Source of the DNA: a virus
Length of the DNA stretch: 29,445 nucleotides
Direction: 5' to 3' (one strand)
IMG/VR virus record: IMGVR_UViG_3300036792_000088
Coordinates: 1-29,445 of that record
The notes below the pieces were generated by a model. That model ran no database searches. It worked only from the letters and a program-made list of their open reading frames with translations, and was not told the origin of the DNA. Positions 2,682 through 17,187 of this stretch are shown piece by piece; position 1 is the stretch's first letter; every line of letters starts with the position of its first letter. A program made the translations under genes and the position numbers.

Positions 2682-2696
2682 GATATCTAAGGCATG
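2682..2696 (+). promoter_or_regulatory. Start-abutting motif copy 1 (GATATCTAAGGC-ATG)
   Basis: GATATCTAAGGC at 2682-2693 directly touches the ATG of the connector gene. It is the most diverged of the clear copies (TCTAAGGC for TACAGGGC) but keeps the 12-base spacing. Confidence 0.5.
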
Positions 2697-3309
2697 TATC
2701 CCGTGCCTTCGCTGTCGGACCTGGCCACGTTCAGTGGCAGGCCAGAGCCCACCTACACGGGATACGCCACGTCGGCGCTGCTGCAGGCCACCATCCGGTT
2801 CACATTCCTGACCGAGATCACTGACCCGACCCAGCTGAGCGGGTACAACGCGCTGACCGCGGCCGACCAGGCGGTGCTGGCCCTGCAGGGTATCTGCGCG
2901 CTGGCCGACAACATCTACTTGCAGTTCCCCTACCAGCAGGCCATCGCCTCCCCGCTAATGAGCGAGACGCTCGGTAGCTACACCTACGCCAAGGGGTCCG
3001 CTATGGGCGGCGGCGGGTCGATGTCTGATGGCCCCGGCCGCCATGGAACTGTCGATGGGCACCACCGGCGTCCAGCTGTTCGACATGGCGGTCCAGCTGC
3101 TGTCGCTGCGCACCATCGCCTCCGGTGTGTTCCACGACGGTATGAGCCTCTTCGAGGAGGGCGAGCGCAAGTCGGCGCTGGGAGCCGGGCTGTACATCAC
3201 GGAGGACGGTACCGGGCGCCGCTGGATTCTCGGTCCGGAGGACCACGACAACATCAACTTCCCGTTCGACGTCAACTCGCAGGGCTTCCCCGGAGACCCG
3301 GGCGTCTAG
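2694..3309 (+). CDS. Head-to-tail connector protein, split over two reading frames
   Basis: Residues encoded from ATG 2694 (SLSDLATFSG...LTAADQAVLALQGICALADNIYL...SETLGSYTYAKG) look like an adaptor or head-completion protein that binds below the portal. Good coding stops at a Gly-rich stretch near 3000-3025 and resumes in the +1 frame (APAAMELSMGTTGVQLFDM...) until TAG at 3307-3309. The original frame runs on as an implausible Arg/His-rich shadow into the next gene. Homologues I remember have a glycine-rich linker followed by TGV-x-x-FDxAV, so both halves appear to be one protein of about 204 residues. Either a +1 recoding event, a real frameshift, a separate gene at ATG 3028, or a sequence error explains this. 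The start directly abuts the GATATCTAAGGC motif and has no ordinary Shine-Dalgarno. Confidence 0.65.
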
Positions 3310-3317
3310 GAGGCAGC

Positions 3318-3512
3318 ATGCCGTCATCGAGCAAGTGGCAGCAGCACATCGAATGCACCCGCCTCATGCGACAGCATCCTGACTGGGATGACGAGCGGGT
3401 GCTAGTGGAGATGCACCTGCACCCGTTGGAGATCAACATTGTGCAGGAGGCACGGCGTGAGGTCACTAACGAGACAGCCCCTCCAGACGGCAGCTCAGTC
3501 CGCAGTTACTGA
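3318..3512 (+). CDS. Small neck-region protein
   Basis: A 64-residue protein. The ATG has a near-perfect ribosome site (TAGGAGGCAGC), which overlaps the stop codon of the preceding connector gene and so indicates translational coupling. The sequence is soluble and helical-looking, with QHPDWDDERVLVEMHLHP in the middle and a polar tail. I do not recognise a family. The same frame is open upstream, but that part is the out-of-frame shadow of the connector gene. Confidence 0.65.
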   Translation: MPSSSKWQQHIECTRLMRQHPDWDDERVLVEMHLHPLEINIVQEARREVTNETAPPDGSSVRSY

Positions 3513-3774
3513 GCAGCTGTACCTGGAGGGCCGGCTGCTGCGTGCGCTGGTTGGCTGCACGTGCTCGTACGAGGCGTTCGCCCTGGCCACCCGGTCGGTG
3601 CCCACGGTGTCGCACTACTGCCGGGAGTACCCGTGGGTGGGCGGCGTCATCCTGGGCGGGCTGGTGATGCACTTCTACTACGAGCGGCAGATGCTGAACG
3701 CGGTGGCAGCGGCCCGGGCCCGGTCACGATTGAACAGGGCATGCACAGTCCCTGGGAGCGCCACCCGCACGTAA
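3457..3774 (+). CDS. Small protein with one hydrophobic segment
   Basis: A 105-residue protein. GTG at 3457 was chosen because AGGAGG sits 7 bases upstream, inside the end of the previous gene; GTG at 3439 is in the same frame but lacks a ribosome site. Residues near 65-80 (WVGGVILGGLVMHFYY) could be a single membrane span, and the C-terminus is Arg-rich. Several Cys residues (CTC near 35 and C near 58) are present without a recognisable metal site. It overlaps its neighbours on both sides. Function unknown; the setting is the head-tail junction cluster. Confidence 0.55.
   Translation: MRSLTRQPLQTAAQSAVTEQLYLEGRLLRALVGCTCSYEAFALATRSVPTVSHYCREYPWVGGVILGGLVMHFYYERQMLNAVAAARARSRLNRACTVPGSATRT
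3728..3743 (+). promoter_or_regulatory. Start-abutting motif copy 2 (GATTGAACAGGGC-ATG)
   Basis: Bases 3728-3740 read GATTGAACAGGGC and run straight into the ATG of the DUF1003 gene. It belongs to the set at 2682, 4267, 9243, 16368 and possibly 14638. There is no Shine-Dalgarno at normal spacing, so the gene may be read from a leaderless message or the motif may itself act in initiation. Confidence 0.5.
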
Positions 3775-4259
3775 GGACCGGCGACGAGCTGAGCTTCGGC
3801 GAGAAGGCAGCCGACGTCATGCGCAACGCGTTCGGCAGCTGGGCGTTCGTCGGCAGCTTCCTCGGCTTCATGGCCATCTGGATGGTTGTCAACGGGGTCC
3901 TGCTGGGCAACGGCGCGTTCGACAAGTACCCGTTCATCCTGCTGAACCTGGCGCTGTCGATGATGGCCGGGCTGCAGGGCGCGCTGATCCTCATTGCCGC
4001 CAAGCGGGCCGACCGGGTGTCGGCTGAGCAGGCACTGGCGCATTACAGCGAGACCGGCAAGATCGACGCGCTGCTCACCCAGAACACCGAGCTGACGCAG
4101 ACGATCGCCAACCAGACCGCGCAGCTGGAGAGCCTGGCTTCTTCGGTCGCCCGGATGCACGCGGTGGTCTGCGCGCCGTCCGCGCTGAAGTACCAGCCGG
4201 GGATCATGCTGTGCGGCTGTGCGGAGGGTACGCACAGCCCGGATACCCCCGACCAGTAG
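3741..4259 (+). CDS. DUF1003-family membrane protein
   Basis: A 172-residue protein whose first half fits DUF1003: FGSWAFVGSFLGFMAIWMVV (33-52) and PFILLNLALSMMAGLQGALI (64-83) are two membrane spans with the family's FGSW and PFILLNL signatures. Residues about 105-140 are a predicted coiled coil (LLTQNTELTQTIANQTAQLE), and the tail has a Cys cluster (CGC). DUF1003 proteins occur in bacterial membranes and have no established biochemical role. Finding one in the middle of a head-neck gene string is unusual; a role at the host membrane late in infection is possible. The start is set by the abutting motif at 3728. Confidence 0.75.
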   Translation: MHSPWERHPHVRTGDELSFGEKAADVMRNAFGSWAFVGSFLGFMAIWMVVNGVLLGNGAFDKYPFILLNLALSMMAGLQGALILIAAKRADRVSAEQALAHYSETGKIDALLTQNTELTQTIANQTAQLESLASSVARMHAVVCAPSALKYQPGIMLCGCAEGTHSPDTPDQ

Positions 4260-4266
4260 TTCCCCC

Positions 4267-4282
4267 GATTGAATAGGGCGTG
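4267..4282 (+). promoter_or_regulatory. Start-abutting motif copy 3 (GATTGAATAGGGC-GTG)
   Basis: Bases 4267-4279 read GATTGAATAGGGC and directly precede the GTG of the next gene. This copy differs from copy 2 by one base, yet the genes that follow are unrelated, which argues for function rather than gene duplication. Confidence 0.5.
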
Positions 4283-4792
4283 ACTTATCCCAGCCCGCCG
4301 CCGCAGCCGTACCAGACGTTTGCCGTTGGCAGCCCGATCCGGACGATGTACCAGTCGCTGGTGCAGGTCTACCGGCTGAAGATGAAGCTGAACGCGGGCA
4401 GCCCGACGCTGACGTGGGCGCCGGTGGCGGCGGTCATCGACCCGTACGTGGAAAAGGCCGGGCAGATGATGTGCCGGCTGGACCTGGGATTCATCAAGCG
4501 CGGCGACATGCCTATGCCGGTCACGGCCGGGCGCGCACCGGACCGGATGGGCACAGCGTTCTTTGACGCCGCGGTCGACCCCGACACCGGGGCGCCGTAC
4601 GTCCTGGCTGGCGACCGGTTGTTCTGCCTCGCCGGGCCGATCACCGGCACGTTCGAGATCCGCACCATCCCCACTGCGGCGGTCGGCTTCGGCGGCGCGC
4701 ACCACGTGGAAGTCCAGATCTTTGAGGTAGCCCAGTCCATCGCCAAGGGCAGCCAGACGCCGTTCCCGGGGTCGGAGGGGTCGGATACATGA
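4280..4792 (+). CDS. Putative head-closure or neck protein
   Basis: A 170-residue soluble protein, GTG start fixed by the abutting motif. It contains a Pro-rich N-terminus, then a mixed alpha/beta body with a run of small residues, and near the end GTFEIRTIPTAAVGFGG followed by HHVEVQIFEVAQ, a strand pattern like that seen in phage head-tail stopper proteins. Position, after the connector and before the tail-completion genes, supports a neck role. The assignment is tentative because no signature residue is decisive. Its last codons overlap the next start by ATGA. Confidence 0.55.
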   Translation: MTYPSPPPQPYQTFAVGSPIRTMYQSLVQVYRLKMKLNAGSPTLTWAPVAAVIDPYVEKAGQMMCRLDLGFIKRGDMPMPVTAGRAPDRMGTAFFDAAVDPDTGAPYVLAGDRLFCLAGPITGTFEIRTIPTAAVGFGGAHHVEVQIFEVAQSIAKGSQTPFPGSEGSDT

Positions 4793-5028
4793 CCGAGCAG
4801 TTCCCCACGCACTACGGAGACGACTTCGTCGGCGGCGAGATGGCCCAGCGCGGCACCATCCACGGGTCCGGCACGATCGACATCGAGGTGGACCCCGACA
4901 CCAAAGAGGTCACGGCGGTGTGGTTCCGCTGCCTGAACCTGCCGTACCGGGTGTTCATGCACAAGGCCACGGCGGTGATCCAGCCCGGCACGTTTGTCAC
5001 TGCGGTGGAGTACCTGGAGGCGACATGA
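4789..5028 (+). CDS. Small virion-region protein of unknown function
   Basis: A 79-residue protein, ATG in an ATGA overlap with the previous stop; GGAGGGG lies upstream. Visible are an acidic N-terminus and a central beta-like stretch (IHGSGTIDIEVDPDTKEVTAVWFRC). No family recognised. The tight coupling on both sides suggests that it is made together with the neck proteins. Confidence 0.6.
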   Translation: MTEQFPTHYGDDFVGGEMAQRGTIHGSGTIDIEVDPDTKEVTAVWFRCLNLPYRVFMHKATAVIQPGTFVTAVEYLEAT

Positions 5029-5417
5029 TCAGGTTCGAGGTGAACATCAGCCCGGCTGAGGTAGAGCTGGACCGCCTGCAGCACCCGCCGACGCACGAGC
5101 TGGAGTCGGTGCTGGCGGCCAACTTCGCCACCACCGAGGCGCGGGTGCACGTCATCACCGGCCACCTCAAGGCCAGCGGCCACCCGACGTCCGAGCACAC
5201 CGGCGACGTGTGGACCGGCACCCTGCATTTCGACCGCGACCCTGGCATCTTCGAGCTGGCCCGCGGCCTGAAGCACACCAAGCACCATGGCGGCTTGGGC
5301 GACTCGCACTTCTTCTTTGACCCGGTAGAGGCCCGGTGGCCTGGCGACTGGACGACTGGTGACTCGTTCCAGATGTACACCAAGGTCATCCGCCGTTTCA
5401 TAGGAGATGATGCGTGA
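5025..5417 (+). CDS. Putative tail-completion / HK97 gp10-like protein
   Basis: A 130-residue protein with ATG overlapping the previous TGA (ATGA) and GGAGG just upstream. The body contains ATTEARVHVITGHLKASGH, a Gly-containing strand pair (WTGTLHFDRD) and HFFFDPVE, which resembles the small neck/tail-completion proteins that gate the head-tail junction (HK97 gp10 group: long helix, then 'TG-L..S', then beta strands). Gene order immediately before the tail terminator candidate agrees. No enzymatic motif. Confidence 0.55.
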   Translation: MIRFEVNISPAEVELDRLQHPPTHELESVLAANFATTEARVHVITGHLKASGHPTSEHTGDVWTGTLHFDRDPGIFELARGLKHTKHHGGLGDSHFFFDPVEARWPGDWTTGDSFQMYTKVIRRFIGDDA

Positions 5418-5443
5418 CCGGGCGTATATTGGCCGGCACCTGA

Positions 5444-5590
5444 GTGCCCGGCTACACGGTGGTTGAGGTGTCGTTCCTGGTCGGGCGCAAGCTGTTGCTC
5501 TGCCAGGACTGCGGGTCGGTAGTGGTGGACGAGTGGCAGACCACCCACGAAGCGCTGCACAGCAAGCTGGAGGCACGGAATGGCAGATGA
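5444..5590 (+). CDS. Small zinc-finger-like protein
   Basis: A 48-residue protein from GTG 5444, immediately after an in-frame stop at 5441. It contains LLCQDCGSVVVDEWQTTHEALH: a C-x2-C pair followed about 15 residues later by H-x4-H, a typical small zinc knuckle seen in many actinobacteriophage orphan proteins. A TATATT box sits at about 5425-5430. The ribosome site is weak, and GTG 5459 is an alternative start. It ends 11 bases into the next gene. Confidence 0.5.
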   Translation: MPGYTVVEVSFLVGRKLLLCQDCGSVVVDEWQTTHEALHSKLEARNGR

Positions 5591-6143
5591 CGTAGCCAGC
5601 GGCGCCTACTGGTTCCTGACGTCCCAGAGCGACGTGACGGCGGTCGTGGGGGCATTCCCGGCCGACGACCCGGACAACGCTGGCGTCCCGTGGATCTTCG
5701 TCCGCAACGTGGCCACCCGACTGGAGACCGCCTCCATCATCAAGGGCACTCAGGCGGTCGCCCTGGTCTGCTGCTTCATGGGGCAGGCCGCCACCCCCAA
5801 CGCGTCGTCCACCGCCCGGTCGCAGCGGCTGGAGGTTGACATCTGGGTCGACCCGCTGCGCGACTCGATGGGCAACGTGACCAACCCGTCCGAGACCGAG
5901 AGCCGCGGCCTGAACGTGTTCTCCGTCATCGACAGCCACCTCCACCGGGTCGCCACCGACCAGAACACCGTGGTCTGGGGCAACCTGGTCACCACCGGAA
6001 GCACCCGGATGACCGAGCCGGTCTGGTACCCGGTGCCGGACGGGGACGGGCTGATCCGCGGTGCCTGCTTCTACGAGGTCGCGTGCTTCGGCAACACCGG
6101 CGACCTGCGGGTCAGCAGCGGCGACGGCGGGGGCGGGCAGTAG
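5580..6143 (+). CDS. Putative tail terminator protein
   Basis: A 187-residue protein, ATG with GGAGG about 7 bases upstream. It has a short helical start (VASGAYWFLTSQSDVTAVVG), a beta core with RLEVDIWVDPLRD, and FSVIDSHLHRVATD followed by strands (FYEVACFG), a layout like siphophage tail terminator proteins (lambda gpU group), which cap the tail tube before it joins the head. The tail is Gly-rich. It is the last gene of the head-neck string before the glycosyltransferase insertion. Confidence 0.6.
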   Translation: MADDVASGAYWFLTSQSDVTAVVGAFPADDPDNAGVPWIFVRNVATRLETASIIKGTQAVALVCCFMGQAATPNASSTARSQRLEVDIWVDPLRDSMGNVTNPSETESRGLNVFSVIDSHLHRVATDQNTVVWGNLVTTGSTRMTEPVWYPVPDGDGLIRGACFYEVACFGNTGDLRVSSGDGGGGQ

Positions 6144-6172
6144 TTATCGACTGCCGATAGATCAGGGTCACT

Positions 6173-6460
6173 ATGAGCAGCCGCAGCATGGAGTGGTACA
6201 GCGACCCGGCCAACCGGGACAAGCGCAAGGCCAGGATGCGAGCGTACGGCCAGGCGACGACCGAACTCGGCCAGCGTCACCCGGAGGAGCGGCTGGCCGC
6301 TTACCGGCAGGCCGTCGCGGACGGCAAGGAGCACGGCAGCCGTGCGCAGAACCAGGCCAACGCCACGCTGCGGTCCAGCTACCCGGACGAGTTCCGGCGT
6401 CTCTTCGAGGAGAAGCTGTCCAGTGAAAGTACTGCTCCGGTCACCGATCAACAGCTATAG
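6173..6460 (+). CDS. Small basic protein of unknown function
   Basis: A 95-residue soluble, helical, Arg/Lys-rich protein (for example RDKRKARMRAYGQATTELGQ, then RHPEERLAAYRQAVADGKEHG). A GATAGATCAGGG sequence close to the start-abutting motif lies 10-20 bases upstream, but here the ATG is 8 bases further on and there is no clear Shine-Dalgarno. The repeated 'YRQA-ADGKE' layout suggests a small nucleic-acid or protein binder, but I recognise no family. It overlaps the glycosyltransferase start by 38 bases, so the two are probably coupled. Confidence 0.6.
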   Translation: MSSRSMEWYSDPANRDKRKARMRAYGQATTELGQRHPEERLAAYRQAVADGKEHGSRAQNQANATLRSSYPDEFRRLFEEKLSSESTAPVTDQQL

Positions 6461-7541
6461 CGGGTACGGCCGGGACGGGGTGGGCATCGCCCGGGCGCTG
6501 GTGCGCTGGGGGGCAGACGTCTACCTGGAGCCCAGCTACGTCTCGCCGCCGTTGCCCAAGGACGTGGCGCTGCTGCTGACCAAGCACCTCAAGGCACCGT
6601 TCGACCTGATCATCCAGCACAGCGACCCGGACAACCTGGGCATCTCCGACATCGCCGCGCAGTGCAGTGAGGTCCGGGTCGGCTGGAGCATGTGGGAGTT
6701 CAGCGACGCCAAGCCGCTGGCCAGCCGGATCTCCACGTTCAAGCGGCGCCTCAAGCACTTTGACCTCATGCTGATGTACGACAGCGTGTCACTGGAGGCG
6801 TGGCAGCAGTACGGACCCAAGCGGCTGGCCTGGGCGGTCCTGCAGGGCGGGTACGAGGCGGCCGAGTGGAAGTACTACGGCGAGCGCGACTGGTTCGAGG
6901 ACCGGTTCATGTTCATCATGCACGGGCAGCTGCACAACCGGAAGTCGCCGTACGTCACCATCCAGGCGTTCAACGAGCTGAAGCACGAGCACCCCAAGGA
7001 CTTCGAGCCCGCCCGGCTGGGACTGCACACCACGATCGGTGACCCGCTGGTGGTCTTCGGGCAGATGATCCCGGGGATGAAGGTCTGGCACGAGATGTGG
7101 GAGAAGTCGGTGCTGGAGGAGTTCTACCACGCCGCCCACGTGCTGGTCGCGCCCAGCCGCGGCGAGGGCAAGAACCTGCCAGCGCTGGAGATGCTGACCA
7201 CCGGCGGTGCGGTGGCGGCCACCAACTGGGGCGGGCACACGCAGTGGATCAACCCGCAGTACGCCTACCCGCTCGACTACACCCTGACCCCGACCGACCC
7301 GAATCACCCGGACGGCGCCCACGATGCGAAGGTGTCGGTCCAGACGGTCAAGGACATGATGTGGCACACCTTCAACAACCGCGAAGAGGTCAAGTGCAAG
7401 GCTGAGATCGGGGCGGAGACCATCCCCAAGATGTGCGACTGGTCGGTGGTGATCGAGCGGTTCTTCGACCGGGTGCGGGACAACGTGCCGGACAAGGGCG
7501 AGAAGCTGTGGATCAAGGCCCAGCAGTGCCGGAAGGAATGA
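6423..7541 (+). CDS. Glycosyltransferase, GT-B fold (family 4-like)
   Basis: A 372-residue enzyme that should move a sugar from a nucleotide donor to an acceptor. GTG 6423 is chosen because the protein then opens with MKVLLRSPINSYSGYG, the first strand and Gly loop of the N-terminal Rossmann domain, with GAGGAG upstream. The C-terminal domain carries the E-x7-E signature of retaining GT-B enzymes (E248 and E256 in SRGEGKNLPALEMLTTGG), then ATNWGGHTQWINP for donor binding. The end (MCDWSVVIERFFDRV) is typical of the family. Sited among virion genes, it may decorate capsid or tail protein, or a host surface polymer; the acceptor cannot be read from sequence. Its stop lies inside promoter element copy 1. 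Confidence 0.85.
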   Translation: MKVLLRSPINSYSGYGRDGVGIARALVRWGADVYLEPSYVSPPLPKDVALLLTKHLKAPFDLIIQHSDPDNLGISDIAAQCSEVRVGWSMWEFSDAKPLASRISTFKRRLKHFDLMLMYDSVSLEAWQQYGPKRLAWAVLQGGYEAAEWKYYGERDWFEDRFMFIMHGQLHNRKSPYVTIQAFNELKHEHPKDFEPARLGLHTTIGDPLVVFGQMIPGMKVWHEMWEKSVLEEFYHAAHVLVAPSRGEGKNLPALEMLTTGGAVAATNWGGHTQWINPQYAYPLDYTLTPTDPNHPDGAHDAKVSVQTVKDMMWHTFNNREEVKCKAEIGAETIPKMCDWSVVIERFFDRVRDNVPDKGEKLWIKAQQCRKE

Positions 7542-7570
7542 TTGACGACCGTCAGGCGTTACACTATATG
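7536..7570 (+). promoter_or_regulatory. Promoter-like element, copy 1
   Basis: A 35-bp element starting GAATGATTGAC and ending GTTACACTATATG. TTGACG and TATATG are spaced by 17 bases; a second candidate -10, TACACT, lies inside. It overlaps the stop of the glycosyltransferase and precedes a non-protein-coding stretch closed by a terminator. Confidence 0.7.
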
Positions 7571-7591
7571 TAAGGGTAGTCCGGAGGGGAG

Positions 7592-7642
7592 GTGATCGCC
7601 AGGGGAATGCCTCAGCGCGGCGGCAGCGATAGGAGCGCCTGA
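7592..7642 (+). CDS. Possible 16-residue leader peptide
   Basis: A very short frame, GTG 7592 with GGAGGGG just upstream, encoding a peptide that begins MIARGMPQRGG and ends in SDRSA. ATG 7607 is an alternative start in frame. It ends in a TGATG overlap with the next short frame. The small size means chance cannot be excluded; support is the ribosome site, the overlap and the promoter in front. Confidence 0.3.
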   Translation: MIARGMPQRGGSDRSA

Positions 7643-7695
7643 TGAAACTGCAGGTACGCGACAGCAGTAAGGCTCTGATCAGCGTAATGGTTTGA
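7642..7695 (+). CDS. Possible 17-residue peptide
   Basis: Short frame MKLQVRDSSKALISVMV, with AGGAG 7 bases before the ATG and TGATG coupling to the preceding short frame. No family can be assigned. It sits between promoter element copy 1 and a strong terminator, so it could be the translated part of a small regulatory transcript. Confidence 0.35.
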   Translation: MKLQVRDSSKALISVMV

Positions 7696-7757
7696 ACCGC
7701 CCAACCTGAGGCAGGCGACAGTCCACGTCCTGGCAACAGGACCACTGGCGGCACGGA

Positions 7758-7791
7758 AGCGTCTTGGCCCACCTGGGCCGGGGCGCTTTTT
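7758..7791 (+). terminator. Intrinsic terminator
   Basis: A 14-bp stem from AGCGTCTTGGCCCA against TGGGCCGGGGCGCT (three G-U pairs in RNA), with a tiny loop, followed by a run of five T. It separates the candidate small transcript from promoter element copy 2. Confidence 0.85.
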
Positions 7792-7804
7792 CCGTCCCAG
7801 CTGG

Positions 7805-7839
7805 GAATGATTAACAGTCGTCTATGGTTATAGTAAGTG
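7805..7839 (+). promoter_or_regulatory. Promoter-like element, copy 2
   Basis: Begins GAATGATTAAC and ends GTTATAGTAAGTG, 35 bp, in the gap just after a terminator and 50 bases before the DUF932 start. TTAACA and TAAGTG are 17 bases apart. It is the most diverged of the four copies in its centre. Confidence 0.7.
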
Positions 7840-7846
7840 TAAGCAG

Positions 7847-7881
7847 CTGGACAGGAAGTCCGGCGGAGTCAGCAGGTGGGG
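7847..7881 (+). promoter_or_regulatory. Hairpin leader and ribosome site of the DUF932 gene
   Basis: CTGGAC and GTCCGG pair around an AGGAA loop (7847-7863), followed by GGTGGGG at 7875-7881 and GTG at 7890. The same arrangement follows promoter copies 3 and 4. Confidence 0.5.
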
Positions 7882-7889
7882 AGAACCTA

Positions 7890-9206: not shown

Positions 9207-9239
9207 GGAACCCCCGGAGAGATCCGGGGGTTCCTTTTT
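9207..9239 (+). terminator. Intrinsic terminator after the DUF932 gene
   Basis: A perfect 12-bp stem (GGAACCCCCGGA with TCCGGGGGTTCC) around a GAGA tetraloop, then five T. It is the strongest terminator in the window. Confidence 0.95.
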
Positions 9240-9242
9240 GTC

Positions 9243-9257
9243 GATATACAGGGCATG
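9243..9257 (+). promoter_or_regulatory. Start-abutting motif copy 4 (GATATACAGGGC-ATG)
   Basis: GATATACAGGGC at 9243-9254 runs directly into the ATG at 9255 and stands 4 bases after a terminator's T-run. A new transcript must begin around here for the downstream gene to be read, which favours a promoter or leaderless-start role. Confidence 0.55.
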
Positions 9258-9482: not shown

Positions 9483-9486
9483 TTCC

Positions 9487-10101
9487 ATGCAGCAGCACCT
9501 GGCAGTTAAGATGGCCACATCCGCGTACCATGGCGCCGCCATGACGGGCCGGGCGTGGCGAGATCAGGCCCGCTGCTCCAAGGAAGGTGTCCCGCTGAGC
9601 AAGATGTTCGCCGAGGGAGCGGACGCCCAGCGGAAAGTTGCCCGGGCGGTCTGCCCGTACTGCCCGGCCAAGGTGGACTGCCTGGTCGAGGCGCTGGCCA
9701 TGCCGTACATGCCGGACGGGGTGTGGGGCGGCACGACCTTCCAGGAGCGGGCGCGGATGGTATCCCGGGCGCTGCGCGGCCGGTGCCGCAACTGCGGCGA
9801 CCGGGTGGCCAGCGATCAGCGGTACTGCGTGGTCTGTGAGAAGGCCGCCTCGTGGAGATCCTTAGGCACTGCGGCAGTTGTGGTGGAAGTCTGCGCGCTG
9901 ACAACAGGTCTGGGTACTGCCAGCGCACTGAAGCATGTGTGGCGCGTTACAACGAGTGGTACAAGCGCCGGCCTCCCATCACTCGCACCTACGACTCCCC
10001 CAACAGGGAGCGGATGCGAGAGTTCAGGGCGCGGTTGTCCCGTTCGTGGTGGGATTTGCAGGATGGCATGTGTGCATGGCCGTTGTGCGGCAAGCCGCTG
10101 A
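9487..10101 (+). CDS. WhiB-family iron-sulfur regulator with added zinc ribbon
   Basis: WhiB proteins hold a [4Fe-4S] cluster through four Cys and modulate transcription with the main sigma factor; phages use them against host whiB genes. Here the four Cys are C30, C56, C59 and C65 (ARCSKEG..., then AVCPYCPAKVDC), followed by the GVWGG turn (78-82) and TTFQERARM. Residues 100-117 add a second metal site (CRNCG and CVVC). GGAG stands before ATG 9487; ATG 9541 is an alternative. Odd end: after about residue 123 the frame runs 250 bases into the endonuclease gene without a stop, and that tail reads like a shadow. The functional protein may end near 9850 by recoding, or the tail may be real. Confidence 0.8.
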   Translation: MQQHLAVKMATSAYHGAAMTGRAWRDQARCSKEGVPLSKMFAEGADAQRKVARAVCPYCPAKVDCLVEALAMPYMPDGVWGGTTFQERARMVSRALRGRCRNCGDRVASDQRYCVVCEKAASWRSLGTAAVVVEVCALTTGLGTASALKHVWRVTTSGTSAGLPSLAPTTPPTGSGCESSGRGCPVRGGICRMACVHGRCAASR

Positions 10102-10474: not shown

Positions 10475-10842
10475 CGCACGGCGCGTATGCCCCCGAGGGC
10501 ATGGAGTGGACCCTGGTCGACGGCAGCAAGGACCACCACCGGGTGTGGCTGTGGCGGCTCAAGCCGGGCAACGTGCGGCGCACGCGCATCCTGGTGGGCG
10601 AGGTCCGGCGCTACCGCCTGGAGGGCCGCCTAACCCGCTGGTGGCGGACCTTCCCCGAGGGCGTGCTTGAGTACCCCGAGGTCTTCGAGAACCACTTCCT
10701 GGCGATGGACTACCTGAAGAACCGGTGGGAGACGCGCAGCGCGCTGCCGGAGATCGTCCGCCCGGTGCCGCGGTCGGCTGACGACGATGCTGGCTGGGAC
10801 GCATTCTTCGGAATGATTGACAGCCGTAAAGCGTTACACTAA
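10471..10842 (+). CDS. Arg/Trp-rich protein of unknown function
   Basis: A 123-residue protein starting at GTG in a GTGA overlap. It is rich in Trp and Arg (HHRVWLWRLKPGNVRRTRI, RLTRWWRTFPEG) and has an acidic end. No family recognised. Its last eleven codons are written inside promoter element copy 3 (read here as FGMIDSRKALH), so protein end and promoter share the same bases. Confidence 0.6.
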   Translation: MTHGAYAPEGMEWTLVDGSKDHHRVWLWRLKPGNVRRTRILVGEVRRYRLEGRLTRWWRTFPEGVLEYPEVFENHFLAMDYLKNRWETRSALPEIVRPVPRSADDDAGWDAFFGMIDSRKALH

Positions 10843-10845
10843 GTG
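10811..10845 (+). promoter_or_regulatory. Promoter-like element, copy 3
   Basis: Begins GAATGATTGAC and ends GTTACACTAAGTG; TTGACA and TAAGTG are 17 bases apart. It overlaps the 3' end of the preceding gene and precedes a four-gene string of small proteins. Confidence 0.75.
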
Positions 10846-10848
10846 GAG

Positions 10849-10874
10849 GGGCCGGAAGGACCGGCCCGGTGGGG
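10849..10874 (+). promoter_or_regulatory. Hairpin leader and ribosome site
   Basis: GGGCCGG and CCGGCCC form a perfect 7-bp stem with loop AAGGA (10849-10867), directly followed by GGTGGGG (10868-10874). The spacing argues for TTG 10881 as the start, as in copy 4. Confidence 0.5.
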
Positions 10875-10880
10875 ATCGAC

Positions 10881-11534: not shown

Positions 11535-11635
11535 ACTGGATGGCCGTTGTCGGCATCGCCCTGATCGTCCTGGGCGTCGCGGGGAGGTGCCTGGCATTCA
11601 TGCTCGAGCGGAAGGAGAGGGACCGCTGGGAATGA
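11531..11635 (+). CDS. Single-span membrane peptide
   Basis: A 34-residue protein: one membrane span (WMAVVGIALIVLGVAGRCLAF) followed by a charged tail (ERKERDRWE). ATG lies in an ATGA overlap. The layout is that of tiny inner-membrane peptides that modulate a host protein or membrane; no specific role can be stated. Its stop is inside promoter element copy 4. Confidence 0.55.
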   Translation: MNWMAVVGIALIVLGVAGRCLAFMLERKERDRWE

Positions 11636-11664
11636 TTGACGACTGTCAAGCGTTATACTAAGTG
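11630..11664 (+). promoter_or_regulatory. Promoter-like element, copy 4
   Basis: Begins GAATGATTGAC and ends GTTATACTAAGTG. TTGACG and TAAGTG are 17 bases apart, and TTGAC-GACT-GTCAA forms a perfect inverted repeat over the -35 region, which could be an operator. Confidence 0.75.
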
Positions 11665-11666
11665 CA

Positions 11667-11690
11667 GGGGGCAGGGAGCCCCCGGTGGGG
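11667..11690 (+). promoter_or_regulatory. Hairpin leader and ribosome site
   Basis: GGGGGC and GCCCCC form a perfect 6-bp stem with loop AGGGA (11667-11683), followed at once by GGTGGGG (11684-11690) and an ATG 6 bases later. Confidence 0.5.
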
Positions 11691-11696
11691 AGCAGG

Positions 11697-12188
11697 ATGA
11701 CCAACATGACCGCCATGGAGAAGTGGCTCACAGACGAGGGTTTTGAGCAGGAGATGGCGTACCCGGCCTACGGGTGGTCGTACCGCAAGGGCAGCGTCCG
11801 GGTGCAGTCCGAGGACGCCGGGGCGCAGTACGTGGCCATCTACGTGTTCGACCCCAAGAACCCGAGGGCGCAGCTGCTGATGTGGGAGGCCACCTTCGCC
11901 GGGGCACCCAACGAGGTGGTCCAGCAGGCCGTCACTACGGCGCGCGGTACCGTGCGGGCAGCGCTGCTGCCGACCGAGTTATGTTCACCAGCGCAGACAG
12001 GCAGTGGCGGGTCAAGCCCATCAAGCGCAACGGCGTCGACCTGCTGCGGGTCGAGCACAAGGGCGTGGAGGGCATGCCGTACCACCAGGTGGACAACAAC
12101 CGCTGCGGCCCGGTCCGGACCGGAGACGGCTGGTGGCTGGCCGAGGACGTGCGCAGCATCGGGGAGGTGGCGAAGTGGGTACCGCTGA
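11697..12188 (+). CDS. Small protein of unknown function, uncertain 3' end
   Basis: Opens MTNMTAMEKWLTDEGFEQEM and continues with a strand-rich stretch (SVRVQSEDAGAQYVAIYVFD) and a helix (EVVQQAVTTARGTVRAALL). Residues 1-95 look like good coding sequence. After 11981, where the next gene starts in another frame, this frame reads Ser/Thr/Cys/Arg-rich shadow to 12188. The natural protein may therefore be about 95 residues with a lost stop, or the long overlap is real. The start has an ideal GGTGGGG site. Confidence 0.55.
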   Translation: MTNMTAMEKWLTDEGFEQEMAYPAYGWSYRKGSVRVQSEDAGAQYVAIYVFDPKNPRAQLLMWEATFAGAPNEVVQQAVTTARGTVRAALLPTELCSPAQTGSGGSSPSSATASTCCGSSTRAWRACRTTRWTTTAAARSGPETAGGWPRTCAASGRWRSGYR

Positions 12189-12214
12189 AGGAACTGTCGG
12201 AGTCGGTTACGTGA
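11981..12214 (+). CDS. Small protein of unknown function
   Basis: A 77-residue protein from ATG 11981, opening MFTSADRQWRVKPIKRNGVD. Alternating pattern and Gly turns (LLRVEHKGVEGMPYHQVDNN, then GPVRTGDGWWLAEDV) suggest a small beta fold. No clear ribosome site is visible, and the start lies inside the previous frame, so coupled re-initiation is likely. It ends in a GTGA overlap. Confidence 0.55.
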   Translation: MFTSADRQWRVKPIKRNGVDLLRVEHKGVEGMPYHQVDNNRCGPVRTGDGWWLAEDVRSIGEVAKWVPLKELSESVT

Positions 12215-12390
12215 TCATCGTCAGTGACGGCTGGGGCGAGGGCACCGAGGTGGCCGGGGTGTTCACCGAGCAGCCCACCCGCAAGGACCTGATCAAGGCC
12301 CGGAGGCAGTTCGGTGCGCAGTACGCCCGGTGGGAGAAGTTCCCGCTGAACAAGGTCACCCGGAGCGAAGAGGACGGACGGCTGCGCTGA
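12211..12390 (+). CDS. Small protein of unknown function
   Basis: A 59-residue protein, GTG in a GTGA overlap, starting MIIVSDGWGEGTEVAGVF. Polar, with a basic helix (RKDLIKARRQFGAQYARWEK). No family recognised. Coupled to its neighbours by overlaps at both ends. Confidence 0.55.
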   Translation: MIIVSDGWGEGTEVAGVFTEQPTRKDLIKARRQFGAQYARWEKFPLNKVTRSEEDGRLR

Positions 12391-12641
12391 TGGCAACGCA
12401 GGCGTACGGCTACCGGCAGGACGCTGGCTACCTGGTCTCGTGGTACGTCTACGTGGTGTGGTACGAACTGCGCGAGACCTGGCGGGCCCTGCCTGGTCCG
12501 TGGTACGTCAAGGTACTGCTGACGGCGATCTGCCTGGCGATCCCTTTCGATCCGTGGGACGAGATCGTGCTGCTGGCGATCGTCAAGTTCGCCCGGATGC
12601 GCAAGGTTCGCAAGGAGAAAAGCCGCGCCGATAAGGTTTAG
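12390..12641 (+). CDS. Small membrane protein
   Basis: An 83-residue protein, ATG in an overlap with the previous stop. An aromatic N-terminal half (LVSWYVYVVWYELRETW) precedes one or two hydrophobic stretches (VKVLLTAICLAIPF, EIVLLAIVKFA) and a Lys/Arg-rich cytoplasmic-type tail. This resembles short phage membrane proteins of unknown role. It is the last gene of the accessory block. Confidence 0.55.
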   Translation: MATQAYGYRQDAGYLVSWYVYVVWYELRETWRALPGPWYVKVLLTAICLAIPFDPWDEIVLLAIVKFARMRKVRKEKSRADKV

Positions 12642-12735
12642 CGTTTCGGCGTGTAGCCGCTTTGGTGCCCCTGACCCGGTATCAGCGAGGGTAGCTATCC
12701 GAGCCGAGGTACTTTTTGCCTGTCTGGAGACAGCA
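12642..12735 (+). other. Gap with hairpin around the lysin ribosome site
   Basis: No gene fits in these 94 bases. At 12720-12733 CTGTC and GACAG pair around TGGA, which places the only SD-like bases (GGAG) in the loop and stem immediately before the ATG at 12736. A T-run (12711-12715) follows a weak stem, so a poor terminator is possible. Confidence 0.35.
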
Positions 12736-13536
12736 ATGCGGTGGGCAACTGCTCTATCTGACCGGATCTTCGACCGGGCTGTTAGCCGCGCTCATTCACG
12801 GCGGAACATCGTGCGGGTGGCGGCAGTCGGTGCCGCTGGCGTGATGGCGGCCGGGGCTATCCACCATTACACCGTTCAGCCGGGTGACACCCTGTCGGGC
12901 ATCTCGCAGGCCGTATGCGGCCACGCGGGCCAGTGGCAGAACGTCTACCAGCAGAACCGGGCGGTGGTCGGCGGCAACCCCAACCTGATCTACGTCGGGG
13001 AGAGACTGGCATTCAGCTGCACCGTCTCGGTCACCTCCTCCACCGACGCGGTGTCCGCGACCCCGGACGGTGACGACATCGGGGGCGGCACCAAGGGCAC
13101 CACCTCCGGACACGTCACCGTGCCTGTGGTCACCGGACCGGTCGTGGCCGGGTCATCGAACGCCAACCTGGTCACCATCGCCCGGTTCATGGTCGCGCAC
13201 GGGTTCACCCGCGCGGCCGCGGCGGGCATCGCCGGTGACATCGACGGCGAGTCGGCTGGCAACCCCGAGTCCGTAGGAGACGGCGGGGGCGGCATCATCG
13301 GATGGACGCCACTGCCCGGCGGGCTGGTGACTGGCAGCCCGTCACGGGACCTGTCCGTGCAGCTGCTGGCCCTGCTGACCTACACGCAGATCTGGCACCA
13401 GTACATCGCGCTGCTGAACTCGGCTAGCGGGCCGGTCGCGGCCGGGGACATCTTTAGCCAGTACTTCGAGCGCCCGGCTGTGCTGTACAGCGACACCCGG
13501 CCGTCTGTAGCCACCGCGATCTATGGCCAGCTGTGA
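12736..13536 (+). CDS. LysM plus tail-lysozyme-type lysin
   Basis: A 266-residue cell-wall enzyme. After a basic N-terminus, residues 24-42 (NIVRVAAVGAAGVMAAGAI) are a hydrophobic segment that could export or anchor it. Residues 44-94 are a LysM peptidoglycan-binding domain (YTVQPGDTLSGIS to LIYVGERLAF). After a Thr/Gly/Val-rich linker, residues 142-266 match the phage tail lysozyme family (Phage_lysozyme2), with catalytic Glu E172 in GDIDGESAGNPE, then GGGGIIGWTP and a YFERP ending. It should cut the glycan backbone. The same domain, interrupted by an intein, occurs in the tape measure protein. It is coupled (GTGA) to an NlpC/P60 gene, together forming the likely lysis cassette. Confidence 0.8.
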   Translation: MRWATALSDRIFDRAVSRAHSRRNIVRVAAVGAAGVMAAGAIHHYTVQPGDTLSGISQAVCGHAGQWQNVYQQNRAVVGGNPNLIYVGERLAFSCTVSVTSSTDAVSATPDGDDIGGGTKGTTSGHVTVPVVTGPVVAGSSNANLVTIARFMVAHGFTRAAAAGIAGDIDGESAGNPESVGDGGGGIIGWTPLPGGLVTGSPSRDLSVQLLALLTYTQIWHQYIALLNSASGPVAAGDIFSQYFERPAVLYSDTRPSVATAIYGQL

Positions 13537-14393
13537 ACGACGACACGCAGCCGTTGTCGCTGCAGCGTCGGCAGCCCGGCCGCCACCGCAAGCCGCGGTC
13601 GGCTGCCCGGTGGATCGTGGCCACGGTGATGGTCCTCGCCGCCGCGGCACTGGTCGGATGGCTGGTAGCGTCCAGCGGCGGTCACGGCAAGTCGACCGGA
13701 CTGGGCGACATGATGGGTTCGGCCCGGCCGGTCGCGAACACCAGCCCGGTGCGGGTGGCGCTGACCCATGCCCGGGTGCCCCGGAAGCCGCGGCAGTCCG
13801 CCGAGTCGGTGGCGCACCCACTGCGGACGGCGACGGTGAAGCCCGCGGCTGCTGTCGTTACGCACCCGGCTGTGGTCCCGACCACGCCCGCCCCGGCTCC
13901 GTCCACCCCGGCGGCTCAGCCTGCCCCTACTCAGGCGCCGTCGACCCAGGCACCGGCCGCGGTTCAGGCGTCAGCTACGATAGCGCCGACTCCAACGGCT
14001 ATCCAGACCACCATGACGGCTGTCACGTCCACCCTGGGCGCTCGCATCCTGGCTGTGGCCGAGACGCGCCGGGGCGACTGGTACGTCTACGGAGCGGCTG
14101 GTCCCAGTGCGTTCGACTGCTCCGGGCTGGTCTACTGGGCGTCGCATCAGCTGGGCGTCAACATGCCGCGCACCACCTACGGGATGCTGAGCACCGGAGT
14201 GGCGAGCGGCATCCTGGTCCGTACGTACAAGCCTGCGCCTGGCGTCCTGGCATTCTTCGGATCCGGGCACGTGGAGTTCGTGACTTCCCTACTGGACACC
14301 ACTTTCGGTGCGCAGCATACCGGGACACGGGTGGGGTTCAACCGGTATTACCCGCCTAGTTATGAGCCTACTGCGTATTACCGCATCACCTGA
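13533..14393 (+). CDS. NlpC/P60 cell-wall peptidase with membrane anchor
   Basis: A 286-residue protein expected to cut peptidoglycan peptides. Residues 27-47 (WIVATVMVLAAAALVGWLV) form a membrane anchor after an Arg/Lys-rich N-terminus; 100-165 is a Pro/Ala/Thr-rich spacer; 168-286 is the NlpC/P60 domain. Catalytic residues visible are C196 in AFDCSGLVYW and H246 in FFGSGHVEFV; the third polar residue is not certain. GTG start in a GTGA overlap with the lysin gene. A signal-anchored endolysin would reach the periplasm side without a large holin pore, but the phage also has a holin candidate next door. Confidence 0.85.
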   Translation: MNDDTQPLSLQRRQPGRHRKPRSAARWIVATVMVLAAAALVGWLVASSGGHGKSTGLGDMMGSARPVANTSPVRVALTHARVPRKPRQSAESVAHPLRTATVKPAAAVVTHPAVVPTTPAPAPSTPAAQPAPTQAPSTQAPAAVQASATIAPTPTAIQTTMTAVTSTLGARILAVAETRRGDWYVYGAAGPSAFDCSGLVYWASHQLGVNMPRTTYGMLSTGVASGILVRTYKPAPGVLAFFGSGHVEFVTSLLDTTFGAQHTGTRVGFNRYYPPSYEPTAYYRIT

Positions 14394-14619
14394 GGCCGGC
14401 CTAGCCGGGGCGGTCATTCTCGCTATGGTCATCTGGGCCATGGTCAGCCTCGGCCGGTGGATAGAGCGCCGGATGAACGAGGCGGAGTTCCGCCGGGTGC
14501 AGCGTGAATGGCAGGAAGACGTAGCGGAAAGACTTGGATTCGGCCCCAAGGTGCCGGTCCGCAAACGACCGGGAGCGCACCGGAAGACGAGAGCCGGGCC
14601 TAAGCACCGGCGGTCCTGA
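14362..14619 (+). CDS. Holin candidate (single-span membrane protein)
   Basis: An 85-residue protein from ATG 14362, inside the end of the peptidase gene. One membrane span (GLAGAVILAMVIWAMVSLG, about 13-31) is followed by a charged helix (WIERRMNEAEFRRVQREW) and a strongly basic tail, the layout of small phage holins. The call rests on this layout and on position right after two lysins; no holin family signature is recognisable. Longer in-frame starts at 14308 lie deep in the peptidase domain and are less likely. Confidence 0.5.
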   Translation: MSLLRITASPEAGLAGAVILAMVIWAMVSLGRWIERRMNEAEFRRVQREWQEDVAERLGFGPKVPVRKRPGAHRKTRAGPKHRRS

Positions 14620-14637
14620 GCAGTACAAATGTGTCCC

Positions 14638-14654
14638 GATTGTTCAAGGCTGTG
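14638..14654 (+). promoter_or_regulatory. Start-abutting motif, weaker copy (GATTGTTCAAGGC)
   Basis: GATTGTTCAAGGC plus one T precedes GTG 14652 of the metallophosphoesterase gene. It favours that start over GTG 14631, but spacing is one base longer than in the clear copies. Confidence 0.4.
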
Positions 14655-15986
14655 AATAACACACGGCGGGGTAATGGGGACACGCTGCCTGAGCGTGCGG
14701 AGCGGGACCCAGAGGTTCGCGCGGTGCTGGAGAACCTCAGCATCGACAACGTGGCCGCTGGACGGCAGCTGGGGGTCAACGAGGCCTCCGTCCGCCGGTG
14801 GAGACTTAGCCAGCGCGGCAGCGGCACAGTGGTGCATGGGCGTATGTCCGGCGAGGACCGGCAGCGGATGCACACCCGACTGGACCAGGTGCTGGACGAG
14901 CTGAACGGCGAGCAGGTCAGCGGCATGCGGGTCTCCCAGTGGGAGAACGTCATGCGCGGCCAGGACGGCGAGCCTGTCATCACCCAGCTGCAGGGCATCA
15001 AGCTGGACATCAAGGCCAGCCAGACCGCGCCGGACTGGCCGCTGGTTGACCGGCCGCAGGCACTGCTCAAGGTGGTCCCGCCCGATGCACCGAGACCGCG
15101 GCACGACCGGGACCGCATCGCGGTGATCCTGCCTGACCCGCAGATCGGCTACCGGCTGTTCGATGACGGGCGGCTGGACCCGTTCCACGACGAGGACGCG
15201 ATCGACGTGGCCATGCAGATCGTGTCCGACCTGCGGCCGGACCAGGTGGTGTGCCTGGGCGACTTCCAGGACTTCGCCGAGTTCGGCAAGTACACGCAGG
15301 AGGCCGCCTTTGGGCGCACCACGCAGCGCGGCATCGACCGCGGCCACCAGTTCGTCGCCCAGATGCGCGCCGCCGCACCGGACGCTGAGCTGGCGGTGAT
15401 GGAGGGCAACCACGACGTGCGGGCCGAGAAACGGATCCGGGAGACCAACATGGCGGCCTGGGGACTGCGGCGGGCGGCCGACACAACTGGCTGGCCGGTA
15501 TTCTCCGTCCCCTACCTGTGCGCGTTCGACCAGTTCGACTGCCGCTACATCGGCGGGTACCCGGCCGGGGAGTTCTGGATCACGCCTGAGCTGCGGTGCA
15601 TCCACGGGGTGAAGGTGAGGTCCGGTTCCTCGACCGCGGCGGCAGTGGTCAAGGACGACGGCGTGTCCACGATATTCGGCCACGTGCACCGGATCGAGAC
15701 GCAGTACCTGTCCGTCCGGGTTCGCGGCGGCCAGCAGACCCGCCTGGCCCACACGCCCGGCTGCCTGTGCCGGATCGACGGCTCGGTGCCTTCGGTGAAG
15801 TCGGCCACCAGCCTGGACGGCCGGCCGGTTCCCACGGCGGAGAACTGGCAGCAGGGGCTGAGCGTGGTGGAGTACCGGCAGGGGCGCAGCAGCTTCGCTT
15901 TGCACTCCATCCACATCAACACCGCCGAGGGGTACGAGGCCAGGTTCAACGGGCGGACGTACGTGCCGCGGAGGCGCAAGCGGTAA
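14652..15986 (+). CDS. Calcineurin-like metallophosphoesterase with N-terminal helix-turn-helix
   Basis: A 444-residue enzyme that hydrolyses phosphoesters with two bound metal ions. All family motifs are present: D162 in LPDPQIGYR, D204 in LGDFQDF, GNHD at 252-255 (N253, H254), H318 in CIHGVKV and GHVH at 343-346. Residues about 32-52 (DNVAAGRQLGVNEASVRRWR) look like a helix-turn-helix, so it may be a DNA-associated nuclease. GTG 14652 is preferred to GTG 14631 because a GATTGTTCAAGGC copy of the start-abutting motif falls just before it and the stretch between is the motif itself. Substrate cannot be read from sequence; it follows the lysis genes. Confidence 0.85.
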   Translation: MNNTRRGNGDTLPERAERDPEVRAVLENLSIDNVAAGRQLGVNEASVRRWRLSQRGSGTVVHGRMSGEDRQRMHTRLDQVLDELNGEQVSGMRVSQWENVMRGQDGEPVITQLQGIKLDIKASQTAPDWPLVDRPQALLKVVPPDAPRPRHDRDRIAVILPDPQIGYRLFDDGRLDPFHDEDAIDVAMQIVSDLRPDQVVCLGDFQDFAEFGKYTQEAAFGRTTQRGIDRGHQFVAQMRAAAPDAELAVMEGNHDVRAEKRIRETNMAAWGLRRAADTTGWPVFSVPYLCAFDQFDCRYIGGYPAGEFWITPELRCIHGVKVRSGSSTAAAVVKDDGVSTIFGHVHRIETQYLSVRVRGGQQTRLAHTPGCLCRIDGSVPSVKSATSLDGRPVPTAENWQQGLSVVEYRQGRSSFALHSIHINTAEGYEARFNGRTYVPRRRKR

Positions 15987-16018
15987 CAGGCTGCCATGAC
16001 TGCACCGAAAGTAGAGTC

Positions 16019-16165
16019 ATGAGGTTCGTCCAGAAGCAGCGCCAGCGCTCGCGACACAGCGCAGAGCACTATGAGCAGGCCTGGCCGCTGCCTCGCCTGG
16101 AGACAGCGGCCGACACGTCAGTGGACTACATCGACGAGTCGCTGCGGGAGCCGGAGGCCGACTGA
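16019..16165 (+). CDS. Small charged protein
   Basis: A 48-residue protein starting MRFVQKQRQRSRHSAEHYEQ, basic at the N-terminus and acidic at the C-terminus (YIDESLREPEAD). GAAAGTAGAGTC stands directly before the ATG, a distant relative of the start-abutting motif. It ends in a TGATG overlap with the next gene, which supports it as real despite its size. Confidence 0.5.
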   Translation: MRFVQKQRQRSRHSAEHYEQAWPLPRLETAADTSVDYIDESLREPEAD

Positions 16166-16356
16166 TGGTCATTCACGCGCTGGTGATGATGGCAGCTGAG
16201 GGCGGTGAGCTGTCGACCGCGGCGGAGGTGGACATCATGCTCCGCGAACTGCTGAAAAGCGACCACAAAGACCACACCCTGGCCGAGGTCGTGGACGCCC
16301 TGCTGGACGTGCGCACTATGATGACGCACGCGGTGGAAGTGCCCGTTCCGGTCTAG
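16165..16356 (+). CDS. Small helical protein
   Basis: A 63-residue protein, ATG overlapping the previous stop. It is predicted all-helical (VIHALVMMAAEGG, then EVDIMLRELLKSDHKD). Function unknown. Its stop lies in the loop of an inverted repeat (TTCCGG...CCGGAA). Confidence 0.55.
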   Translation: MVIHALVMMAAEGGELSTAAEVDIMLRELLKSDHKDHTLAEVVDALLDVRTMMTHAVEVPVPV

Positions 16357-16379
16357 CCGGAATCCCCGATTATACGGGG
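16346..16379 (+). promoter_or_regulatory. Tandem hairpins and start-abutting motif copy 5
   Basis: TTCCGG-TCTAG-CCGGAA (16346-16362) forms a perfect 6-bp stem over the stop codon of the previous gene. CCCCG-ATTATA-CGGGG (16364-16379) forms a second stem that ends one base before the ATG at 16381. The second also holds the start-abutting motif (GATTATACGGGGC). Confidence 0.5.
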
Positions 16380-16380
16380 C

Positions 16381-17187
16381 ATGACTGTTAATTTCCGGGG
16401 CGGCTGGGTTCCTACCCCGCCCGAGCGTCCGCGAGTGCAGATGACGGCCGCGCTGAGCGATTCGCCGCCGCCTTCGGCTGACTACTTCAGCGCAGTGACC
16501 ACGGTCGGCATGCACCTGAACGACAAGTGGGGCTGCTGTGTCTTCGCTGGCGACGCCAACGTCATCCAGGGCATCACCGGCTACGGGTCGGGCAACGAGG
16601 TGGTGGTCCCTGACTCCGACGTCCTCAAGGCGTACGAGAAGGTCGGCCACTTCAACCCGAACGACGGACCGCCCGGGCAGAACCCGACCGACCAGGGCGC
16701 GCAGGTGCCGGACGGTCTCAAGTACCTGCAGAACACCGGCATGGCCGGGCACAAGATCGCCGGGTACGGCGACATCGCGGTGAACGCCACCGCCAAGATC
16801 AAGACCGCCATCGCCGAGTTCGGCTACGTGAGCACGGGCGTCAACCTGCCCAACAGCGCGATGGACCAGTTCAATGCCGGCCCGCCCGCGGGTGAGGAGT
16901 ACCCGGTCTGGGACGTTGTGGCCGACGACGGGGGCATCGACGGCGGCCACTGCGTGGTCATGTGCGGCTACAACGCCAAGGGCTTCCTGATCTGGACCTG
17001 GGACGCGGTGGTCCTGGTCACCTACGCCTGGTGGGCCAAGTACGGCGGCGAGGCCTGGGCGGTGCTCAGCCACGATTGGGTGAACGCCGCGACTGGCAAG
17101 GACCCCGAGGGCGTCGACACGGCTGCCCTCGGCGCCGAGTTCCAGGCGGTGACGGGGACCAACCCTTTCAAGCGCCGCCGCCCGTAG
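16381..17187 (+). CDS. Papain-like cysteine-protease-type protein
   Basis: A 268-residue protein that resembles papain-fold cysteine peptidases found in some phages and bacteria. A presumed nucleophile lies in KWGCCVFAGDANVIQ (C54 or C55), near the start of the main helix as in the family. The His site is GGHCVVMCGYN followed by a hydrophobic TWDAVVLVTYAWW stretch, the usual place of the His and its following strands. No secretion signal is visible. The substrate is unknown; maturation of a virion protein or action on host cell-wall peptides are both possible. ATG is fixed by the abutting motif. Confidence 0.65.
   Translation: MTVNFRGGWVPTPPERPRVQMTAALSDSPPPSADYFSAVTTVGMHLNDKWGCCVFAGDANVIQGITGYGSGNEVVVPDSDVLKAYEKVGHFNPNDGPPGQNPTDQGAQVPDGLKYLQNTGMAGHKIAGYGDIAVNATAKIKTAIAEFGYVSTGVNLPNSAMDQFNAGPPAGEEYPVWDVVADDGGIDGGHCVVMCGYNAKGFLIWTWDAVVLVTYAWWAKYGGEAWAVLSHDWVNAATGKDPEGVDTAALGAEFQAVTGTNPFKRRRP

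Follow-up and report, generated by a model that had tools for sequence, protein, structure and literature searches.

The late promoters of phage T4 (TATAAATA) are read by gp55, and SPO1 likewise uses a phage sigma factor and short -10-like promoters for its late structural genes. Leaderless messages of Mycobacterium have their -10 element near an ATG or GTG that lacks a Shine-Dalgarno (SD) sequence. Phage 7-11 also encodes a sigma factor acting on late genes through short -10-like promoters (PMC4331800). Among cellular factors, sigma-28 recognizes promoters of the form TAAAGTTT-n11-GCCGATAA, in which CGA is essential and from which transcription starts 6 bp past the octamer at aer (PMC2859248); WhiG shares this specificity, with a TAAA -35 and a GCCGATAA -10 element (PMC8325347). 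Phage late sigma factors with short -10-like promoters, sigma-28 promoters and leaderless actinobacterial messages are thus already known, and a limited literature search found no paper that describes a FliA/WhiG-clade phage sigma factor acting at such promoters, nor one on the present motif in this phage family. The motif was found in the IMG/VR virus record IMGVR_UViG_3300036792_000088, whose entire 29,445 bases (the window) hold a tailed phage's structural region and represent a fragment of an actinophage of about 140-150 kb. It is a short element that touches the start codons of several genes and, as judged from sequence comparison, it is probably a late promoter, made of a -10 element and a discriminator, that is read by a phage-encoded FliA/WhiG-like sigma factor and yields leaderless or near-leaderless messages.

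The relatives of the window phage come from metagenomes and have genomes of about 125-152 kb. The nearest large one is G006 (139,587 bp), with a major capsid protein (MCP) 80% identical to that of the window, and the sole clear close record in the phage collection is the cultured Microbacterium phage Magritte (MCP 53% identical). Across these sequences, which are related, so that counts of motif copies are not independent events, and in which gene calling was simple, the element is conserved over 14-15 bp as C-C-G-A-T-W-n4(n)-R-G-G-C, followed by ATG or GTG. An earlier note, made from the window alone, had picked out its GAT...AGGGC core and overlooked the CC before GAT, which was also absent from our initial search pattern and is present at 77% and 88% in the class with 12-nt spacing; the base after GAT is mostly T or A in this class. 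The octamer GCCGATAA is only partly matched, its leading G not being preferred. All copies listed in the note are present on the + strand, namely five abutting a start codon, a weaker one at 14652, and those at 6156, 18082 and 18833 (Table 1), and AGGGCATG occurs 8 times in the window versus 1.5 expected.

In 134 related viral loci, CGATn4-8[AG]GGCATG has 94 occurrences on the gene strand and only two on the opposite strand. The least selection-biased test considered the position of an ATG opening at least 70 codons after CCGATT (some overlapping records being counted); the distance is 12 nt in 80 cases and 13 nt in 17; each remaining distance between 6 and 39 nt accounts for 0-8 cases, and the opposite strand gives none at either 12 or 13 nt. 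Whether the motif is equally frequent away from starts, a question raised by the earlier note, is answered by these numbers, which tie it to starts and to the gene strand. After removal of similar copies, 181 non-redundant starts have CCGATW 12-13 nt upstream and, in keeping with the SD deficit first noticed in the window, only 4% of them have an SD sequence, versus 41% of called genes (G001 was excluded from this comparison because the simple gene caller put its genes on the wrong strand). Upstream of these 181 starts, information content stays at or below 0.11 bit in every column and a single TAAA is present; TAAA, TTGAC, GTTT and GGAA were searched for as -35 elements in the upstream regions of motif starts and none was found, so that the entire conserved signal lies within about 15 bp. 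The motif is a single -10-like element, one of the traits of T4-type late sigma systems, which also comprise a co-activator and coupling to replication. Late regions, whose bounds were drawn by hand, hold 59 of the 66 high-scoring abutting copies on 43% of the DNA (binomial test, p ~4e-15).

In Magritte, all 11 copies of GATATCCCTG lie on the gene strand (0.08 expected). Three of these copies, at genes 9, 19 and 98, read CCGATATCCCTGAC then ATG, six lie 29-69 nt before annotated starts, including those of gp17 and of the major tail protein gp33, and two are within genes. Magritte thus keeps the CGATA core and has other bases next to the start, the pattern to be expected if a -10 element is combined with a discriminator particular to each lineage.

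Matches to sigma-70 region 2 were found in 12 of 14 genomes. No T7-like RNA polymerase scored above the cut-off in the 14 genomes, and such a polymerase was therefore dropped as the reader of the motif. One class of sigma genes, of about 230 amino acids, has the FliA/WhiG family as its best profile match (TIGR02479, top match for three members, E 8.5e-25 to 2.9e-20); only three weak, partial relatives were found in bacterial genomes. Among solved structures, its closest relatives are E. coli FliA (6pmi, E 6e-22) and Streptomyces WhiG (6pfv, E 1e-19). By homology, the phages thus possess a divergent sigma factor related to FliA and WhiG. In each of the eight genomes in which it was mapped, its gene sits in the interval between helicase and DnaB, and a family profile detects it in 20 of 30 records, including all those of at least 100 kb; the other 10 measure 34-97 kb. 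The Magritte protein is gp47, annotated as "DNA binding protein" (E 1.3e-32). The window phage's own sigma gene lies outside the 29,445 bases. Magritte, G014 and G015 had been considered to lack both the sigma factor and the motif, but this was overturned by the family-specific profile and by variant motifs seen on inspection; no correlation of presence and absence is therefore claimed.

The region 2.3-2.4 that reads the -10 element (RxRGAMLDxLRxxDWVxRSxR) is conserved in the phage protein (RMRGAMLDHLRSQDWVTRSAR versus RIRGAMLDELRSRDWVPRSVR in FliA). In contrast, its region-4 recognition helix is devoid of ESRVSQ and of the basic residues (GMAPEEVTVLQQQGVLAVHEAL or GVTPDEAARLHQEAILECHRAM versus VGESRVSQLHSQAIKRLR in FliA; in G006 for example APEEVTVLQQQGVLAVHEAL versus GESRVSQLHSQAIKRLR), which fits the missing -35. 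An AlphaFold model built from 13 sequences has a mean predicted local distance difference test score of 77 and a predicted template modelling score of 0.45, its domain arrangement being unreliable; sigma factors, including sigma-28 and WhiG, rank top when it is searched with Foldseek. In G001-G004 and G007, a small gene (MASTRVEWFLAAKKALRAH... in four of them) is located directly 5' of the sigma gene, e.g., in L210 and L208, and itself starts at a motif-like site, CGATCACGCGGGRC then ATG or similar. Autoregulation, or a role of the small gene product as a partner of the sigma factor, is possible.

A promoter with this sequence could instead be read by a sigma factor of the host, be it WhiG/FliA-like, sigma-A assisted by a phage co-activator, or of the extracytoplasmic function (ECF) type. 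Sigma-A is often redirected by small phage proteins and the window does carry a WhiB-like gene, but the -10 element of the motif does not show the TAnnnT pattern of sigma-A. As for WhiG and FliA, they share the GCCGATAA -10 element, but their promoters have a TAAA -35 (PMC8325347) that is absent at the motif. All large relatives encode their own FliA/WhiG-like sigma, and a host reader is considered unlikely. Of the phages themselves, G001-G004, G007, G011 and G016 encode a second, ECF-like sigma factor with strong Sigma70_r2 matches. That this second factor reads the promoter is much less probable still, since no full match is found in G005, G006, G008, G009 and G010, which nevertheless have the motif, and all five encode the sigma-28-like gene.

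That the motif is a promoter and not a translation signal is strongly supported by the comparison of orthologous genes, because the same element also precedes normal SD leaders. Upstream of the major tail protein gene, CCGATW is found in 37 of 40 non-redundant orthologs (1 on the opposite strand), about 45-60 nt, mostly 45-50 nt, before the ATG, and the leader carries an AGGAGG-like SD. For the tail assembly chaperone gene, the leadered arrangement seen in the window (18831) exists in most genomes compared; the two non-abutting window copies at 18082 and 18833 are thus at positions conserved upstream of tail genes in relatives. At gene 16381, the window copy touches the ATG; in 13 of 29 orthologs a leader intervenes, and the element is found 31-95 nt upstream of the start. 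The scaffold gene displays an abutting copy in 33 of 46 non-redundant orthologs and an upstream copy in 6 more; in the genomes compared directly, it is leadered in G014 and abutting, or nearly so, in the others, including Magritte. Abutting copies are additionally found in 12 of 49 non-redundant orthologs of gene 2694-3512, itself the ortholog of Magritte gp24, in 13 of 41 orthologs of gene 4280, and in 7 of 31 orthologs of the 75-amino-acid gene 9255.

Some copies lie immediately 3' of terminators, both in the window (9207-9239 and 18787-18825) and in relatives, and since these terminators would end incoming transcription, such copies count toward a promoter. The earlier note had already placed one of the non-abutting copies behind a terminator; this is the case for 18833, and the same holds for 9243, where only about 15 nt separate the T-run from the ATG at 9255. 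In orthologs of gene 16381 (e.g., L105, L112 and L125), a terminator-like leader hairpin (CCGATTCGAAGGGCGGG...CCCGCCCTTCGTCG) contains the promoter within its left arm, so that the full hairpin would be formed by read-through transcripts only.

These arrangements make it very improbable that the element acts at the level of translation, as a start-associated sequence (SAS) marking starts in RNA or DNA in the manner of phage clusters K and EF. The element does touch start codons of unrelated genes at which SD sequences are rare, and similar-looking motifs are reported in cluster K and in Microbacterium cluster EF phages (PMC7302621). However, it stands about 45-60 nt upstream, before an SD leader, at the major tail protein gene, and it also precedes the chaperone gene; orthologs of gene 16381 alternate between the abutting and leadered forms, and copies follow terminators directly. 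Furthermore, the cluster EF sequence occupies the position of the ribosome-binding site, as displayed against the 3' end of 16S rRNA (PMC7302621), whereas the present element touches the start codon without a spacer. Of the two proposals initially made for the window, that of a new start-associated element in the cluster K sense, a motif resembling a ribosome-binding site, is contradicted by the leadered copies at major tail protein and 16381 orthologs. For the other proposal, a promoter for leaderless messages, support is strong as regards the promoter and good, short of proof, as regards the leaderless messages. Lastly, an artefact of chance or codon usage at GC-rich gene starts, in which GGGC is frequent, is refuted by the strand asymmetry, the spacing peak and the conservation at orthologs, and its probability is negligible.

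Taken together, the comparisons reveal, at the level of sequence, a conserved CCGATWn4(n)RGGC element with no -35, a fixed 12-13-nt spacing from GAT to the start, and both abutting and leadered use at late orthologs. We infer that the phage sigma factor reads this motif. It would bind the host core RNA polymerase via its conserved region 2 and take CCGATW as a -10 element, with no need for a -35 contact. Transcription would then begin at the start codon or at most about 3 nt from it, the A of GAT being 11 or 12 nt before its first base. The scaffold, head-tail and tail genes would be translated from leaderless or near-leaderless mRNAs accepted by actinobacterial ribosomes, and the major tail protein and chaperone genes would keep a leader of about 30-40 nt with a ribosome-binding site.

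Four observations weigh against this late promoter model. First, position weight matrix hits that lack a start codon show, over whole genomes, only a slight excess on the gene strand (at score 9, 296 versus 244), and leadered copies were for this reason identified by their conserved context and tested at orthologous genes. Second, the bases 3' of the core differ by lineage (RGGC in most, CCCTGA in Magritte). Third, the phage sigma factor scores 73-88 bits, below the NCBI curated FliA/WhiG cut-off of 189.6 bits, and is consequently called a divergent homolog rather than a member of the family. Fourth, with the spacing of cellular sigma-28 promoters, transcripts would begin 1-3 nt ahead of the start codon and not exactly on it, where a sigma-A-like spacing would place their 5' end; leaders of 0-3 nt are possible, hence the wording leaderless or near-leaderless. 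A broader scenario, whose chances we rate as about even, is that a captured sigma factor of the flagellar/sporulation clade lost -35 recognition, and that its promoters became self-sufficient -10-plus-discriminator elements fused to start codons, with much of virion expression being leaderless. In this scenario, the sigma operon of one sublineage would be autoregulated by the motif, and some copies would be embedded in terminator hairpins, termination being escaped only by transcripts that begin at the motif.

Table 1. Motif copies, terminators and genes in the window; the form of the motif given in the earlier note is listed where it differs in extent.
Feature	Position	Strand	Score	Remarks
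Promoter element CCGATATCTAAGGC	2680..2693	+	13.8	Abuts ATG 2694; noted as GATATCTAAGGC then ATG, 2682-2696
Promoter element ACGATTGAACAGGGC	3726..3740	+	16.0	Abuts ATG 3741; noted as GATTGAACAGGGC then ATG, 3728-3743
Promoter element CCGATTGAATAGGGC	4265..4279	+	16.0	Abuts GTG 4280; noted as GATTGAATAGGGC then GTG, 4267-4282
Weaker promoter-like element CCGATAGATCAGGGT	6154..6168	+	9.5	About 5 nt 5' of ATG 6173
Intrinsic terminator GGAACCCCCGG...CCGGGGGTTCC TTTTT	9207..9239	+		Directly 5' of 9241 element; hairpin region ~-28.5 kcal/mol
Promoter element TCGATATACAGGGC	9241..9254	+	11.3	Abuts ATG 9255; noted as GATATACAGGGC then ATG, 9243-9257
Promoter element CCGATTGTTCAAGGCT	14636..14651	+	14.6	Weaker copy, core 14638-14651; GAT to GTG 14652 is 14 nt; one extra base before start
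Promoter element CCGATTATACGGGGC	16366..16380	+	15.9	Abuts ATG 16381 (gene 16381-17187); noted as GATTATACGGGGC then ATG, 16368-16383
Leadered copy CCGATAACAGAGGC	18080..18093	+	14.9	5' of major tail protein ATG 18141; leader with GGGAGAGG
Terminator-like hairpin	18787..18825	+		5' of 18831 element; hairpin region ~-30 kcal/mol
Leadered copy CCGATATACCCGGGC	18831..18845	+	14.4	5' of tail assembly chaperone ATG 18873
Major capsid protein gene	from 14			
Head-tail genes				
Glycosyltransferase gene	6342-7541			
WhiB-like transcription regulator gene	9487-10101			Directly 3' of gene 9255, the putative motif-driven gene
Metallophosphoesterase gene	start GTG 14652			
Major tail protein gene	18141..18767	+		Homology to Magritte gp33; PHROG 36442
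Tail assembly chaperone gene	18873..19664	+		PHROG 34893; Magritte gp34 ortholog
2942-amino-acid open reading frame				Tape-measure position

Other elements were seen in the window and in its relatives. The tape measure gene of the window contains internal 114-bp tandem repeats (24415-25456). A second repeat, consisting of a TTGAC-n4-GTCAA-like inverted repeat then GTTAYACTAAGTG or similar, precedes genes in the 7.5-12 kb stretch of the window (7535-7576, 7804-7845, 10810-10851 and 11629-11670); G001 has 27 copies of TTGACn4GTCAG on the gene strand versus a single one on the opposite strand. This repeat is a candidate operator or early promoter. In G017 (L265-L267, 74-100 kb), 19 copies of GATTCTGAG lie on the gene strand against one on the opposite strand, with most copies outside the late region; this repeat was kept separate from the CCGATW motif, as it lies mostly in another region. 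Finally, a conserved and covarying RNA-like element (GGCCAGCC...hairpin...GGCGCAGGCC GGGCACC...GGUGUCGCUGA) is located 5' of the major capsid gene in most of the relatives, Magritte among them, at positions that fall outside the window (L040:9843-9967, L153:20000-20122 and orthologs). Compensatory changes are seen in 14 of its 17 predicted pairs, and the one copy searched gave no credible Rfam match.

If correct, the late promoter model provides a testable mechanism of late transcription, with a named candidate regulator (Magritte gp47), for actinophages of about 130-150 kb that are known almost only from metagenomes. It would be unusual both in the phage use of the flagellar/WhiG sigma clade and in the leaderless expression of late structural genes. 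The motif would also allow start codons, promoters and operons to be predicted from sequence, placing for instance the start of Magritte gp9 at 5353 and not 5332, and a short -35-less promoter with its sigma factor could be an orthogonal expression pair in actinobacteria.

With regard to known systems, the motif resembles FliA/WhiG promoters by its -10 core, CCGATA or CCGATT, and FliA/WhiG is the best family match of the phage homolog. Unlike in these systems, there is no -35 at the motif, the region-4 helix is without SRVSQ and the basic residues, the conserved bases reach the start codon, and the genes concerned are late phage genes rather than genes of flagella or sporulation. A phage sigma subunit with short -10-like promoters at late structural genes is a feature shared with T4, phiEco32, 7-11 and SPO1, but here the sigma factor is of the FliA/WhiG clade, the element is GC-rich and the promoter is fused to the start codon. 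Leaderless messages in Mycobacterium arise from host promoters, whereas a phage-specific element at late genes is found here. Finally, as in the SAS of cluster K and Microbacterium cluster EF phages, an asymmetric motif recurs at the starts of phage genes unrelated to each other (PMC7302621), but SAS lie at the ribosome-binding site, in contrast to the present element, which abuts the start codon and is also used far upstream, before SD leaders.

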